From a candidate division WOR-3 bacterium (GTDB lineage Bacteria; Hydrothermota; Hydrothermia; Hydrothermales; JAJRUZ01): 41,748 nucleotides of DNA. This document shows positions 36,558-41,447 of this stretch, piece after piece. How positions within the stretch are numbered: the first letter of the stretch is position 1; each line of letters begins with the position of its first letter. The notes below the pieces were generated by a model. The model was given only the letters and a program-made list of their open reading frames with translations. It was not told where the DNA came from and did not search any database. A program made the translations under genes and the position numbers. Location of the stretch: the NCBI GenBank assembly GCA_039803925.1, contig JBDRZL010000019.1, forward strand, positions 1 through 41,748. Direction: 5' to 3'.

Positions 36558-37928
36558 TTATTTTAAAATTTTATATTCTGTTCCCTTTTTTGTATCTAAA
36601 AGTTCTATTCCAAAATTTTTTAATTTTTCTCTGATTTTATCACTTAAATGAAAAATTTTTTCCTCCCTTAGCAGTTGTCTTATTTCAATTATTGTTGAAA
36701 GAAGGTTATTTAAAAGAGAAGAATTAATTTTTTCCTCATCCAGTTTAAAACCTAAAATTTTAAGTATAAAAATCATTAAATTTTTTACTTCGAAAAATTC
36801 TTCTTTACCATCCTCATAGAGTTTATTAGCTAAATTTTTTAACTCATGTAAAATTGCAAAAACTTTAGGTGTATTTAAATCCTCTTCAAGTGCTGATTCA
36901 AATTTTTTTAAATATTCCCTAATTGGAGGTGAAAACCCCTCTAATTCTTTATTTTCCCCTTTAAAAATAATATCTTTTATTTTATCCCATGATTTCTTTG
37001 CTTCTTCAAGGGAATTTTCATCATATTCAAGTGGTGATCTGTAGTGAGCTTTTAATAAAAAATATCTCAAAACATCAGGGTGATAACTTTTAAGTGCATC
37101 AAGTGCCCTGAAAAAAAGTCCAGTTGATTTACTCATTTTTTCACCTTTCATTCTTAATAGTCCTGTGTGAAACCAGTATTTTGCAAATTCCTTACCGGTT
37201 GCTCCTTTACTTTGAGCAATTTCATTTTCATGATGTGGAAATATTAAATCTTCACCTCCTCCATGAATATCAATTGTTTCACCAAGGTGTTTCATACTCA
37301 TTGCAGAACACTCTATATGCCATCCGGGTCTACCTTCTCCAAAGGGTGAATAAAAAAAAGGTTCATTTTCTTTTTTCTTTTTCCATAAAGAAAAATCAAG
37401 GGGATCTTTCTTTGTTGGGTCTGGTTCAACCCTCGCTCCTTTTTCAAGTTCCTCTAAGGGTTTACCCGACAATTTTCCATATTCATCAAATTCTGAAACA
37501 TCATACCATATATTTCCCTCAGATTCGTAGGCAAGATTCTTATTCAGCAATTTTTTTATAATTTCGGAAATTTCAGTTATATGTTGAGTTGCTCTTGGGT
37601 AAATATCAGCTTTTCTTAAATTCATCTTTTCACTTACTTCAAAAAATTCACTTTCATATCTTTCTGCTATTTCCCTAAAATCTTTTCCCTCTTTAATTGC
37701 CTTCTGAATAATCTTATCATCAATATCTGTAATATTTAAAACAAATTTAACTTTATAACCTTTGTATTCTAAGAACCTTACAAGAATATCAGCACATAGA
37801 AATGCTCTCAAATGGCCAAGGTGTGGTGAATCCTGAACAGTCATTCCACAGAAATAAAATTTAACTTTCCCCTCCTCCAAGGGAATAAAATCTTCAATTT
37901 TTTTACTTATAGTATTGAAAATTTTCAT
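36558..37928 (-). CDS. cysS: Cysteine--tRNA ligase
   Basis: A 456-residue class-I aminoacyl-tRNA synthetase that charges tRNA(Cys). The HIGH motif is HLGH (36-39), the KMSKS motif lies at 264-268, and the zinc ligands are Cys27, Cys207, His232 and Glu236, spaced as in the E. coli enzyme. RPGWHIECSAMS and GGGEDLIFPHHENE are family signatures. The frame extends 18 codons further upstream to 37982, but the ATG at 37928 matches the family N-terminus and has TATAAT 7 bases upstream. It is convergent with the glycosyltransferase gene with one base between the stop codons. Confidence 0.97.
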   Translation of the reverse strand: MKIFNTISKKIEDFIPLEEGKVKFYFCGMTVQDSPHLGHLRAFLCADILVRFLEYKGYKVKFVLNITDIDDKIIQKAIKEGKDFREIAERYESEFFEVSEKMNLRKADIYPRATQHITEISEIIKKLLNKNLAYESEGNIWYDVSEFDEYGKLSGKPLEELEKGARVEPDPTKKDPLDFSLWKKKKENEPFFYSPFGEGRPGWHIECSAMSMKHLGETIDIHGGGEDLIFPHHENEIAQSKGATGKEFAKYWFHTGLLRMKGEKMSKSTGLFFRALDALKSYHPDVLRYFLLKAHYRSPLEYDENSLEEAKKSWDKIKDIIFKGENKELEGFSPPIREYLKKFESALEEDLNTPKVFAILHELKNLANKLYEDGKEEFFEVKNLMIFILKILGFKLDEEKINSSLLNNLLSTIIEIRQLLREEKIFHLSDKIREKLKNFGIELLDTKKGTEYKILK

Positions 37929-37935
37929 TGTTCTT

Positions 37936-37943
37936 ATTATAAT
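37936..37943. promoter_or_regulatory. Palindromic bidirectional -10 core between cysS and propeller gene
   Basis: ATTATAAT gives TATAAT on the minus strand (37936-37941), 7 bases before the cysS ATG, and TATAAT on the plus strand (37938-37943), 49 bases before the ATG at 37993. The plus-strand transcript would therefore have a short leader containing GGGTTCAATCCCC, a small possible hairpin. Confidence 0.5.
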
Positions 37944-37992: not shown

Positions 37993-40203
37993 ATGAATTT
38001 TTTTATTTTTTTAGCTTTTAATATAATAAATGTAGATTTAAATTTCAGGAGAGAGCAGATTTTATGGAAATGGGATTTGCGAAATTTTTCAAATTTAAAA
38101 ATAAATTCTTTCTATCCTCTTACTTACATAGGACCTGAGGGTGGAATAATTTTATATCCTATAACTTCTGAAGTTAATTTAAAAAAGGTGGTTTTGCCTT
38201 CTTTTTTAGAGTATCATAAAAGTGAGAATGTTTTTGCTGGTGATACTTTTGAGATTGCTATACCGTATTCAGGATTAAATTTTAGGTTCGGTAAAAGCGG
38301 GGTAATGATTTCATCTAACACATTTCTTCTTTTGAGGGATACCTTGTCCTTTTACTTTACTGATGATAATTTTGCCACGTTAAATATAGTGAGTTTAAAT
38401 TCAAAAATTGGAGCTTTAGATGCGCTTGGTTCAACAATTTATATGATTTCCGGTGATTCTCTTTTAAGGTCAGATAATGGCGGTTATAATTTTAATTTTA
38501 TTAGAGATCTTGAAAATTATTTGATTCAGGGTAATTATAACTATGTTATGGATATTTTCCCCTTTAACCAACAGGTGGTTGCAATTGCAGCTTATGGTCA
38601 AGAGACTAAATTTTTGATTTCAACTGATGGTGGAAACAATTTTTCTGCTTACAATTTACCCTTTTCTGGAGATATTTATTCCTTGAGATTTGCTCCTCAG
38701 AATCAAAATGTTATATTTTTAGATCCTGCATCAGGCGGTGTTCTATACACTACAGATGCTGGTGTTACCTGGAATAATGTAAATTTAATACCAAATTTTC
38801 CTCTTTATCCTGGTTTTATCATAGATATTTTACCTTTAAATTCAGATACCTTTTTAATATCTTCTGTAATTGATAGAGGTATTTTTAAAGCTTATAGAAC
38901 CTTTGGTAATAATTTTTCTTATTCCTATCTTGATACCACTTTAGTTCCCTTTTTCTTTGAACCCACCTATAGAAATTCAAAATTGAATGATACTTTTTAT
39001 ATTGGTTCAAATGATGGGGTTTATTACACTGTTAACAGGGGAAATACATGGACAAGGTATAAGAATCGTTTAAAGGCAGTTTTACTTTTGGGACCAGGAC
39101 AGGTTACATCAAAGAAAGACACAACTTTTTTAATTACAGATGGAGGAATTGTTTATAGAAGTTTTGACCTTATAAATAGTAGTTTTTCTGAGCTTCCTTT
39201 TAAGGGTAATTTAATTTTCTTTGGTAACAATCTTGTTGAAAATTTTTATTTTTCTTCAAAAAGCCTTTATCTTCTAACATCTAAATTCAGAATATTTGCT
39301 TCTCCTTTCCAGAGAGTTTTGTTTTTCTCAAATAATGCGGGTGAAAGTTTTACTTTAAAAAATTCTAATGGTTCTCTTTTAAGTTATTACGATATATTAC
39401 CTGGTTCAAATACAAATACTCTTTATCTATGGAATGATTCAACTCTCATAAAATCATCAGATGGTGGAATTACTTTTGACACAATTTATTCTGGTACTAT
39501 AAGAAGTGTAGCTGGTGAAGGTGATACAATTTTTGTTTTGAAAGAAAGTGACACTCTATATGCAAGTTTTAATGGATTAAATTTTTCAGCTTTAACATAT
39601 TTACCTGATGCAGGTGAGTTATACTATGTAAAAGGTTCTCCCTTTGTATTTTATTCTAATACCTTTAAAAACTATCTTATGTCTTATGATTTAAATAACT
39701 CAACAATAGATACGGCTATTAAAAGACCGAATAACTCATCAATTCTTATTCATTCTTCACTATCCTATGATGGATTCATCTATTCTCTTTTCCTTAACAA
39801 TCAAACTGGAGAAAAAAATATTTATTACAGAAAAATTCCAGATGGAAATATAAATTCGGTTCCTATTAATCTTGAAGCACCTGTTGGCATCTTTGCTCTT
39901 GAAGGTGGTTATGTTCTTATATATGAGATGGGAAGGGGACTTTATATTATAGGTGTAACTTCTGTAGCTGAAAGAAATAGTGAGGATGTAAAATTGTTAT
40001 ACGTAACTCCACTTGTAAGGAATAATCTTGAAATAAAAGGATTTAGAGGTTCTATAAATTATGGAATTTACGATATAACTGGAAAGAGATTGCTTTCTGG
40101 AAATATTTCTTCTAAAGAAAGGGTTTTGAATTTGAATAATTTTAAGTCAGGAACTTATTATATAAAATTAAACAATAAAATTTACAAGTTTATAAAATTT
40201 TAG
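37993..40203 (+). CDS. Secreted Asp-box beta-propeller protein with T9SS-type sorting domain
   Basis: A 736-residue exported protein. Residues 1-14 (MNFFIFLAFNIINV) form a short signal. The body contains at least six BNR/Asp-box-like repeats (LRSDNGGYNF, STDGGNNF, TTDAGVTW, TVNRGNTW, SNNAGESF, SSDGGITF), indicating a sortilin/Ycf48-like propeller. The C-terminus (NYGIYDITGKRLLSG, then FKSGTYYIKLNNKIYKFIKF) is a good match to the T9SS type A sorting pattern. No catalytic residues are recognised. Length and architecture (propeller plus sorting domain) recall PorZ, but PorZ propellers are of a different type. The stop codon TAG shares its G with the first base of tRNA-Ile. Confidence 0.8.
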   Translation: MNFFIFLAFNIINVDLNFRREQILWKWDLRNFSNLKINSFYPLTYIGPEGGIILYPITSEVNLKKVVLPSFLEYHKSENVFAGDTFEIAIPYSGLNFRFGKSGVMISSNTFLLLRDTLSFYFTDDNFATLNIVSLNSKIGALDALGSTIYMISGDSLLRSDNGGYNFNFIRDLENYLIQGNYNYVMDIFPFNQQVVAIAAYGQETKFLISTDGGNNFSAYNLPFSGDIYSLRFAPQNQNVIFLDPASGGVLYTTDAGVTWNNVNLIPNFPLYPGFIIDILPLNSDTFLISSVIDRGIFKAYRTFGNNFSYSYLDTTLVPFFFEPTYRNSKLNDTFYIGSNDGVYYTVNRGNTWTRYKNRLKAVLLLGPGQVTSKKDTTFLITDGGIVYRSFDLINSSFSELPFKGNLIFFGNNLVENFYFSSKSLYLLTSKFRIFASPFQRVLFFSNNAGESFTLKNSNGSLLSYYDILPGSNTNTLYLWNDSTLIKSSDGGITFDTIYSGTIRSVAGEGDTIFVLKESDTLYASFNGLNFSALTYLPDAGELYYVKGSPFVFYSNTFKNYLMSYDLNNSTIDTAIKRPNNSSILIHSSLSYDGFIYSLFLNNQTGEKNIYYRKIPDGNINSVPINLEAPVGIFALEGGYVLIYEMGRGLYIIGVTSVAERNSEDVKLLYVTPLVRNNLEIKGFRGSINYGIYDITGKRLLSGNISSKERVLNLNNFKSGTYYIKLNNKIYKFIKF
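40191..40196 (+). promoter_or_regulatory. Candidate -10 box of tRNA-Ile inside the upstream coding sequence
   Basis: TATAAA, followed by 6 bases and then base 1 of the tRNA at 40203. This is the same spacing as from -10 boxes to start codons elsewhere in the window, so transcription could begin at the mature tRNA 5' end. A weak TTAAAC (40168-40173) lies 17 bases upstream. AT-rich coding sequence makes chance occurrence likely. Confidence 0.3.
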
Positions 40204-40276
40204 GCCCCGTAGCTCAGGTGGTTAGAGCGTACGCCTGATAAGCGTAAGGTCGGTGGTTCAAGTCCACCCGGGGCCA
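40203..40276 (+). tRNA. tRNA-Ile (anticodon GAT)
   Basis: A 74-base tRNA without introns. The acceptor stem GGCCCCG pairs with CGGGGCC, the D arm is GCTC...GAGC, the anticodon stem TACGC/GCGTA encloses the loop CTGATAA (anticodon GAT), and the T arm is GGTGG TTCAAGT CCACC. Discriminator A; the 3' CCA is not encoded. The first base is also the last base of the preceding stop codon, and an outer-membrane protein gene starts 31 bases downstream. Confidence 0.97.
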
Positions 40277-40293
40277 TAATTAATAAAAAAATA

Positions 40294-40302
40294 AAAGGAG
40301 GT
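40294..40302 (+). promoter_or_regulatory. Strong Shine-Dalgarno site of the barrel gene
   Basis: AAAGGAGGT, 5 bases before the ATG at 40308. It is fully complementary to the anti-Shine-Dalgarno end of 16S rRNA and the strongest such site in the window, consistent with an abundant envelope protein. Confidence 0.85.
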
Positions 40303-40307
40303 AATAT

Positions 40308-41447
40308 ATGAGGAAAATATTAGGAGCTCTTGCACTCCTCTTAGGAGTGCTTTTTGCTACAGAGACAAGAGTGACTACATTTGGTGGAGTGGCTGATTTT
40401 TTAAAGGATGATGCTCTTGCTCTTACATATCCTTCCCAGATTCTTTCTTTTCCTGGTTATCTTGTTCTTGAGGCTTATGATGAAAATACACTTATATCAG
40501 GTAATGCTTACTTAAAAGGTTATTTTGGTCTTGGAGAAAACCATTCAAAGGGTGTGTTTGGAGTTTATTTAAATATTCCAGTATATACATATCCTTACAG
40601 AACTATAAAAGGTTTTATGCTCTCTTATGGAAAATATTTAGGTGAAAAGCTTGGTTTTGGACTCAATTTTGGATTTGGAAATTACAGTAGAACCTATGAA
40701 GATACAACAGGTGCTGGTTTTAAAAATAAGGAAAGTGCAAACATAATTTCCTTAAATCCAGGCATTACCTTTTATCTCTCCGAAACCGACTTTATTGATG
40801 CAGCTTTTAAATTTAACATTCACTCTTTTGATGTAAAGAGCGCCATACCTAGTGATACAACAAAAGCAAAAGGAACTTCTGATATTTCTTTTGATGCAAG
40901 ATATATGAGGTCCCTTTCAGAATACACTTCACTTGTAGTTGGTTTTCACTTTTTAACCTCTGATAATTCCACAGAAGAAAGAGCGGGTGGGCAGACTTCT
41001 GAATTTACTGATAAATTTTCAAGTTTTGGACTCAATATTGGAATTAACACCCAGCCTATAGATGTCTTAAACTTTATTTTAGGATTTCAGATTACAAGTG
41101 CCTCCTGGGATTATGGTGATGCTGGTAAACAGGGAAGATTTTCTTTTGGAGCAGTTACAGGACTTGAAGCAGACCTTGGAAAATACTTTCTTTTGAGACT
41201 TGCAGCAAGAAAAGATCTCTGGGGAAGTTATACTGATGATTACTTCTCTTTTCCAACTGGAAAGTTAAGTCTTACAACACAGGATCTACTTCCACTTGCC
41301 CTTGGTTTTGCTTATAAGAGGGGTAATTTAAGAGTAGATGCTCAGGCTTCTCCTGATATTTTATATAATGGTCCCTATTTCATTACAGGAAAACAAAGTA
41401 ATTTCTTTACCTCAATAAGTATTCTTTATTCCTTTTCAAGTTACTGA
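40308..41447 (+). CDS. Outer-membrane beta-barrel protein (PorV/UPF0164-like or porin)
   Basis: A 379-residue protein with a clear signal peptide (MRKILGALALLLGVLFA, cleavage near residue 17-18) and a body of amphipathic strands rich in Gly, Tyr and Phe. The start of the mature part, TRVTTFGGVADFLKDDALALTYPSQI, resembles the N-terminal turn of PorV/UPF0164-like barrels of FCB-group bacteria. The sequence ends in SISILYSFSSY, a likely terminal barrel strand. It has a strong ribosome-binding site and its own terminator, so it is probably abundant. No promoter is visible between the tRNA and the gene, so co-transcription with the tRNA is likely. Confidence 0.8.
   Translation: MRKILGALALLLGVLFATETRVTTFGGVADFLKDDALALTYPSQILSFPGYLVLEAYDENTLISGNAYLKGYFGLGENHSKGVFGVYLNIPVYTYPYRTIKGFMLSYGKYLGEKLGFGLNFGFGNYSRTYEDTTGAGFKNKESANIISLNPGITFYLSETDFIDAAFKFNIHSFDVKSAIPSDTTKAKGTSDISFDARYMRSLSEYTSLVVGFHFLTSDNSTEERAGGQTSEFTDKFSSFGLNIGINTQPIDVLNFILGFQITSASWDYGDAGKQGRFSFGAVTGLEADLGKYFLLRLAARKDLWGSYTDDYFSFPTGKLSLTTQDLLPLALGFAYKRGNLRVDAQASPDILYNGPYFITGKQSNFFTSISILYSFSSY

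Follow-up and report, generated by a model that had tools for sequence, protein, structure and literature searches.

The window analyzed here, a stretch of 41,748 nt, is contig C19 of a 1.84-Mb genome assembly (G000; 29 contigs, 96.45% complete). Its forward strand carries a propeller gene, a tRNA gene, and a porin-like gene in succession, with the following features.

37915-37943, + strand: predicted propeller promoter, TTGAAA-17-TATAAT (score 16.8, the top + strand match in the window)
37993-40203, + strand: propeller ORF of 736 aa, with an ATG start and a TAG at 40201-40203, for a beta-propeller (sortilin/BNR-like) protein with a C-terminal T9SS-like sorting domain (ORF, Pfam, NCBIfam, orthologs)
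40191-40196, + strand: TATAAA, the −10 candidate of the original prediction, ending 6 nt from the tRNA and probably merely codons F-I-K
40201-40203, + strand: TAG stop codon, whose G is tRNA-Ile position 1
40203-40276, + strand: tRNA-Ile(GAU), called by ARAGORN and Rfam, CCA not encoded
40308-41447, + strand: porin-like outer membrane protein gene, 31 nt after the tRNA, with AAAGGAGG at 40294-40301

The original prediction had the propeller stop codon and the start of the tRNA sharing one base, and the ORF, ARAGORN, and Rfam all bear this out. RF00005 (Rfam) places tRNA-Ile exactly where ARAGORN does, over model positions 1-71 of 71 with 73.1 bits, and the acceptor stem GGCCCCG/CGGGGCC fixes G1 at 40203. 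G40203 is the single base common to the stop codon and the tRNA, and because tRNA G1 supplies the last base, TAG is the only stop possible in the propeller frame. Coding and tRNA functions share a base, as was also proposed. The stop is TAG in the three genomes with the overlap and TAA in the sister genus, where a gap separates the two genes. The TATAAA likewise lies where it was reported. This tRNA-Ile(GAT) is the only copy found among the 43 tRNAs of G000.

With the propeller protein as query, 60 genomes were searched, its own included; 33 had some match and only four others a strong one. The junction was compared in these four, which have long strong propeller matches. G001 and G002 belong to the same genus, G003 to the other (sister) genus of the family, and G004 is an order-level outgroup; the order is represented by five genomes in the collection, a small sample. 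PF15902 (sortilin/Vps10 propeller) matches the propeller ORF at 45.9 bits (cut-off 33), and the T9SS sorting domain, at residues 684-735, is weak (PF18962 in Pfam, 25.5 against a cut-off of 27; TIGR04183 in NCBIfam, 22.9 against 23). The orthologs align through the last residue, with protein identities of 93.5% (G001), 53.8% (G002), and 42.9% (G003). Judged from these matches and alignments, the propeller ORF is a real gene. Its 3′ end is truly coding, as a KF[IV]KF-type C-terminus is kept in four genomes (G000-G003; RFIKF in G002).

The junction and its neighborhood in related genomes

The 1-nt overlap is identical in G001 and G002, the two other genomes of the genus examined, and the junction TTTATAAAATTTTAG, at whose final G the tRNA begins, is the same in all three. 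Since separate congeneric genomes share the identical overlap, the junction is no assembly quirk. In G003, the propeller gene ends in TAA and a gap of 19 nt precedes tRNA G1. The propeller relative of G004 sits elsewhere with no tRNA nearby; there, a different ORF ends approximately 204 nt upstream of tRNA-Ile, downstream there still lies a porin-like gene, and also an ORF that we take to resemble a dCTP deaminase. No tRNA is found near the weaker propeller-matching loci (L052-L054). Approximately 180 nt upstream of the intact tRNA-Ile of G004, a fragment resembling a tRNA 5′ half is present (L174, ~1320-1370).

Matches of the porin-like gene to PopA/PorV are weak and do not reach cut-off. In 5/5 genomes, the next gene after tRNA-Ile is similar to it (G000-G003 by protein start; G004 at 32% identity), with 31, 69, 23, and 22 nt between the tRNA and the porin start codon in G000-G003, respectively. 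Our model scan of G000-G003 found no promoter above 2.9 between tRNA-Ile and the porin ATG, and a simple scan listed no terminator before the porin start. Because no promoter above 2.9 lies between them, tRNA-Ile and the porin gene are probably co-transcribed. All five genomes have the tRNA-porin unit; proximity to the propeller gene is, as sampled, a trait of the family. Just 3′ of tRNA-Ile, G001:C2 (locus L048, reverse strand) contains ~38 extra bases with a T-arm-like hairpin, absent in G000 and possibly a tRNA remnant.

Close spacing is not confined to tRNA-Ile. For 20 of the 43 tRNAs in G000, a same-strand ORF of at least 80 aa ends no more than 80 nt from the tRNA start, with gaps of −15, −1, 1, 9, 12, 20, and 26 nt, then 13 of 34-57 nt, a class with roughly the space that a promoter needs. 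Some of the shorter ORFs counted may be spurious; the propeller and ispE cases are backed by homology. The ispE gene (TIGR00154, 176.2 bits, cut-off 138.7) ends with a TAA 15 nt inside tRNA-Gln(UUG), and the same is found in G002.

G000:C2:123003-123074, − strand: ispE/tRNA-Gln(UUG) overlap (locus L036)

The tRNA-Leu(UAG) gene of G000 lies 1 nt behind a TGA. At G002:C14:1756-1840 (+ strand, locus L155), the corresponding ORF extends 51 nt into tRNA-Leu(UAG), and its terminal peptide is translated from the tRNA.

Predicted promoters at the propeller/tRNA-Ile locus

A generic sigma-70 scan gave 21 sites against 15.9 expected from shuffles and decided nothing. A two-box model was obtained by expectation maximization (EM), with TTGAAA and TATAAT as seeds, from 122 tRNA upstream regions of G000, G002, and G003 (135 tRNAs minus the 3 for Ile and 10 closely behind another tRNA, leaving 122 unclustered non-Ile genes). 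The model converged on TTGAA(A/T), 17 or 18 nt, and TATAAT, commonly ending 8-10 nt before the tRNA and varying up to 19 nt. Without the distance term, 85/125 unclustered tRNAs of the three genomes have a match of at least 9 within 20 nt, a count that includes tRNA-Ile of G002 and G003 and excludes that of G000. Such a missing match is not rare, as 13/41 unclustered tRNAs in G000, Ile among them, have no adjacent match of at least 9. The TTGAAA-TATAAT model should be useful as a promoter model for the lineage. Most isolated tRNA genes of G000, G002, and G003 have their own TTGAAA-TATAAT promoter, usually 8-10 nt upstream, implying very short leaders.

Restricted to distances of at most 19 nt, the model finds an adjacent tRNA-Ile site scoring 15.0 in G003 (0/500 shuffles as good), 8.8 in G002 (16/500; its −10 box stops just 4 nt short of the tRNA), and 2.6 in G000 (TTAAAC-17-TATAAA; 160/500). 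The predicted propeller promoter upstream of the CDS is also present in G001 and G002 (16.8 each) and in G003 (12.5). With no distance limit, five matches of at least 12 occur on the + strand of the whole window, and two of them are at the propeller/tRNA locus: the propeller promoter and a site within the propeller CDS itself.

40132-40161, + strand: predicted tRNA-Ile promoter inside the propeller CDS, TTGAAT-18-TATTAT (score 12.7; −10 box ending 41 nt before tRNA G1)

These two are also the only sense matches of at least 9 across the whole propeller locus in G000 and in G001. At the homologous codon column, G002 has TTGAAT-18-TATCAT (12.4). Its other locus sites are the propeller promoter, a TTGATA-18-TAAAAT (12.4) ending 4 nt from the tRNA, one of 11.6 at 75 nt, and one of 10.0. 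When G000 and G002 are aligned by codon, the embedded column has a joint score of 12.4, and the next best among 2,379 columns is 3.6. The site is absent from G003, which scores −3.3 at that column. It falls within the conserved sorting-domain motif, and its −35 box uses TTG, a rare Leu codon (93 of 1,266 Leu codons in the long ORFs of the window). The codons of the preceding gene appear to spell out a tRNA promoter.

Synonymous-codon reshuffling of the last 40 codons of G000 and G002 reached the joint score in 0/1000 and then 2/5000 trials. With a fraction of 0, 0.12, 0.3, or 0.5 of codons shared by descent, the null reached it in 2, 18, 43, and 53 of 5000, respectively; the actual sharing is about 0.12 (226 of 393 identical residues against 202.6 expected). 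Taken singly, the best match of G000 was equalled by 35/1000 synonymous shuffles; in G002 the best match is the other site, and 162/1000 equalled it. Synonymous conservation between G000 and G001 is uninformative, because just 32 of the 688 codons with the same residue differ synonymously, and in the last 30 codons 0 differences were seen where 1.3 were expected. As a control, ORFs around the tRNAs of G000 and G002 were paired by best BLAST match, dropping pairs with <35% or >85% identity or with <80 aligned residues, which left 75 pairs and 62,364 aligned columns. Five of these columns reach a joint score of 8, namely 12.4 (the tRNA-Ile site), 10.5 (ispE), 9.9, 9.3, and 9.1. The ispE column is a conserved promoter-like site in the CDS, TTGCCT-18-TAAAAT, 43 nt before tRNA-Gln, weaker when considered alone (7/1000 joint shuffles). 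The top two joint matches in this comparison coincide with the genus's two conserved CDS/tRNA overlaps, which is the strongest evidence for the predicted embedded promoters.

In G004, a free-standing promoter match, TTGAAA-18-TATAAT, lies ~14 nt from tRNA-Ile, ahead of tRNA-Ile and the porin gene. In G003, the −35 box of the predicted tRNA-Ile promoter is inside the propeller CDS, and the promoter ends 11 nt before the tRNA. A longer gap with a separate promoter, which the original prediction named as evidence against itself, is found in the sister genus and in G004, and not in the genus of the window. From a free promoter in G004, through a CDS over the −35 box in G003, to a promoter wholly within the CDS and no gap in the genus, the series reads as progressive encroachment, in a direction that so few genomes do not fix.

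Transcription and processing of tRNA-Ile

Comparison with the relatives points to a promoter of the tRNA's own, concealed in the end of the propeller gene, as its source of transcription. In the reading that we favor, and consider probable with some reserve, tRNA-Ile has a CDS-embedded promoter, a leader of ~36 nt is trimmed by RNase P, and the upstream gap has shrunk to minus one base.

40167-40202, + strand: putative tRNA 5′ leader, ~36 nt by the usual promoter spacing, overlapping the last 11-12 propeller codons

Within the genus, the space between the propeller gene and the tRNA-Ile-porin unit would have been lost down to that shared base. Transcription of tRNA-Ile would proceed mainly from 40132-40161, in the last 25 or so propeller codons, starting near 40167; RNase P would cut between 40202 and 40203, and transcription would run on into the porin gene. 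Because most tRNA precursors would begin too far downstream to be propeller mRNA, cutting them would cost nothing. Propeller mRNA would come from the separate promoter at 37915-37943, and only those of its transcripts that read through could become non-stop. On these, RNase P and the terminating ribosome would compete over the same bases. A ribosome on the stop codon covers the tRNA acceptor stem, so cutting and termination would be mutually exclusive in time. A cut read-through mRNA would end in ...UUU UA, a non-stop message clearable by tmRNA. Genes for RNase P RNA (RF00010, 221.8 bits, G000:C2:84567-84948) and tmRNA (182.4 bits) are both present in G000. We infer from the sequence that the promoters are active, where transcription starts, how the RNAs are processed, and what becomes of mRNA that reads through. 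The overlap probably reflects harmless crowding and is no special device for cutting mRNA, and its significance as a mechanism is modest. Should read-through mRNA be frequent, the junction would be a natural setting in which to see how one substrate is divided between RNase P and a terminating ribosome.

Several observations temper the embedded-promoter reading. Only two really independent sequences carry the site (G000/G001 and G002), and G003 is without it. The −10 box is not full consensus in either form, the G000 score is matched by 35/1000 synonymous shuffles, as given above, and the distance of 41 nt is unusual. G002 has an equally strong second site and a third at 75 nt, and the tRNAs of G000 lacking an adjacent match include Ile. 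The embedded promoter could also drive the porin gene no less than the tRNA.

The original prediction offered two mechanisms, processing of a propeller through-transcript and initiation at the first tRNA base, and missed the embedded site. Its statement that RNase P cleavage would take the last stop base from a through-transcript holds, with both RNase P RNA and tmRNA genes at hand; because a conserved promoter-like site lies within the CDS, obligate co-transcription with the whole propeller gene becomes unnecessary. We consider it unlikely that tRNA-Ile is made solely by read-through from the propeller promoter, the cut then leaving a non-stop mRNA in a bacterial form of tRNA punctuation. The strength of that promoter, unmatched on the + strand of the window, and its conservation in G001-G003 would fit, as would the weak adjacent promoter of G000, the RNase P RNA and tmRNA genes, and an overlap that leaves no room for a terminator, none being listed by the simple scan before the porin start. 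However, the conserved embedded site offers another source, both relatives outside the genus have a promoter adjoining the tRNA, and the sole tRNA-Ile(GAU) found would otherwise hang on a 2.2-kb gene for a secreted protein, with every propeller mRNA threatened.

Initiation exactly at 40203 from the TATAAA, yielding a leaderless tRNA that requires no 5′ trimming, appears somewhat less probable still, and we rejected it as the main reading. With this spacing the first transcribed base would be G1, which is a purine; TTTATAAAATTTTAG is shared unchanged by G000, G001, and G002, and in G002 a TTGATA stands 16 nt upstream of the TATAAA. Nevertheless, the adjacent G000 site is no better than shuffles, its −35 box is not conserved in G000, and a distance of 6 nt is rare among related tRNAs, which mostly have 8-10 nt. 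The conservation of TATAAA is explicable by the codons TTT ATA AAA TTT, and with RNase P RNA present, leaderless starts are not needed.

A broader idea, which we would call a long shot, is that RNase P, acting at tRNA-Ile and tRNA-Gln, has a controlling influence on the genes before them as well. Once cut, read-through transcripts would be stripped of their stop codons, by one base for the propeller and by 15 nt for ispE, maturation would compete with termination, and cut mRNAs would be cleared by tmRNA or, for the propeller only, rescued by addition of an A to the UA, giving a bacterial analogue of mitochondrial tRNA punctuation. Least credible to us is that nothing mechanistic is involved, an intergenic deletion in the genus ancestor having fused the two ends, with any upstream promoters sufficing and the embedded motif owed to chance and protein conservation: there are further near-zero gaps beside tRNAs, the site falls in a conserved protein motif, and up to 53/5000 nulls reach the joint score if half of the codons are shared by descent, yet codon sharing is barely above independence and the control ranks the site first of 62,364 columns.

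Comparison with known systems

Phage integrase genes that overlap tRNAs are precedents for shared coding and tRNA sequence. In the openly licensed PMC literature searched, no case was named in which a bacterial stop codon and a tRNA have a base in common, which is no evidence of absence in print. The nearest ideas are mitochondrial tRNA punctuation and the leaderless tRNAs of Nanoarchaeum equitans. Within the genome itself, the ispE/tRNA-Gln pair is a close parallel, being a conserved CDS/tRNA overlap with a promoter-like site embedded in the CDS at a similar distance (43 nt, against 41 nt for the propeller gene). It differs in its larger overlap, as RNase P would strip four sense codons and the stop from an enzyme gene.

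In E. coli, Mohanty and Kushner reportedly described in 2008 a joint secG-leuU mRNA-tRNA transcript that is processed by RNase P. Both loci have a protein gene followed directly by a tRNA on the same strand; here the gap is −1, with no room for a terminator, and the genome has an RNase P RNA gene (RF00010). The secG stop, however, is 14 nt before leuU and is spared by the cut, whereas the last base of the propeller stop belongs to the tRNA. The predicted embedded promoter also argues for a separate tRNA transcript and against a single mRNA-tRNA transcript.

Nanoarchaeum equitans has leaderless tRNAs, no RNase P, and strict promoter spacing, as outlined in PMC10100707. Promoter placement that sets the tRNA 5′ end is what the original prediction proposed for the TATAAA. 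In contrast to N. equitans, an RNase P RNA gene is found here, and the −10 boxes of related tRNAs lie mostly 8-10 and up to 19 nt upstream, implying short leaders; a promoter at fixed distance with its start at tRNA position 1 is not evident, as the G000 site does not rise above shuffles.

Animal mitochondria use polyadenylation to complete stop codons that are cut short at the edge of a tRNA. An RNase P cut at 40203 would likewise leave UA, to which one added A would restore UAA. Mitochondrial coding genes abut tRNAs without a spacer, and cuts by RNase P and RNase Z set the mRNA ends (PMC4394434). Abutting coding and tRNA genes are common to both systems, but here a full TAG is encoded, and in place of a few long polycistrons without promoters for each gene, a bacterial-type promoter of its own accompanies the majority of tRNA genes (85/125 unclustered tRNAs with an adjacent match of at least 9). 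The junction shows how far intergenic space can shrink, with one base serving as both the end of a stop codon and the start of a tRNA.
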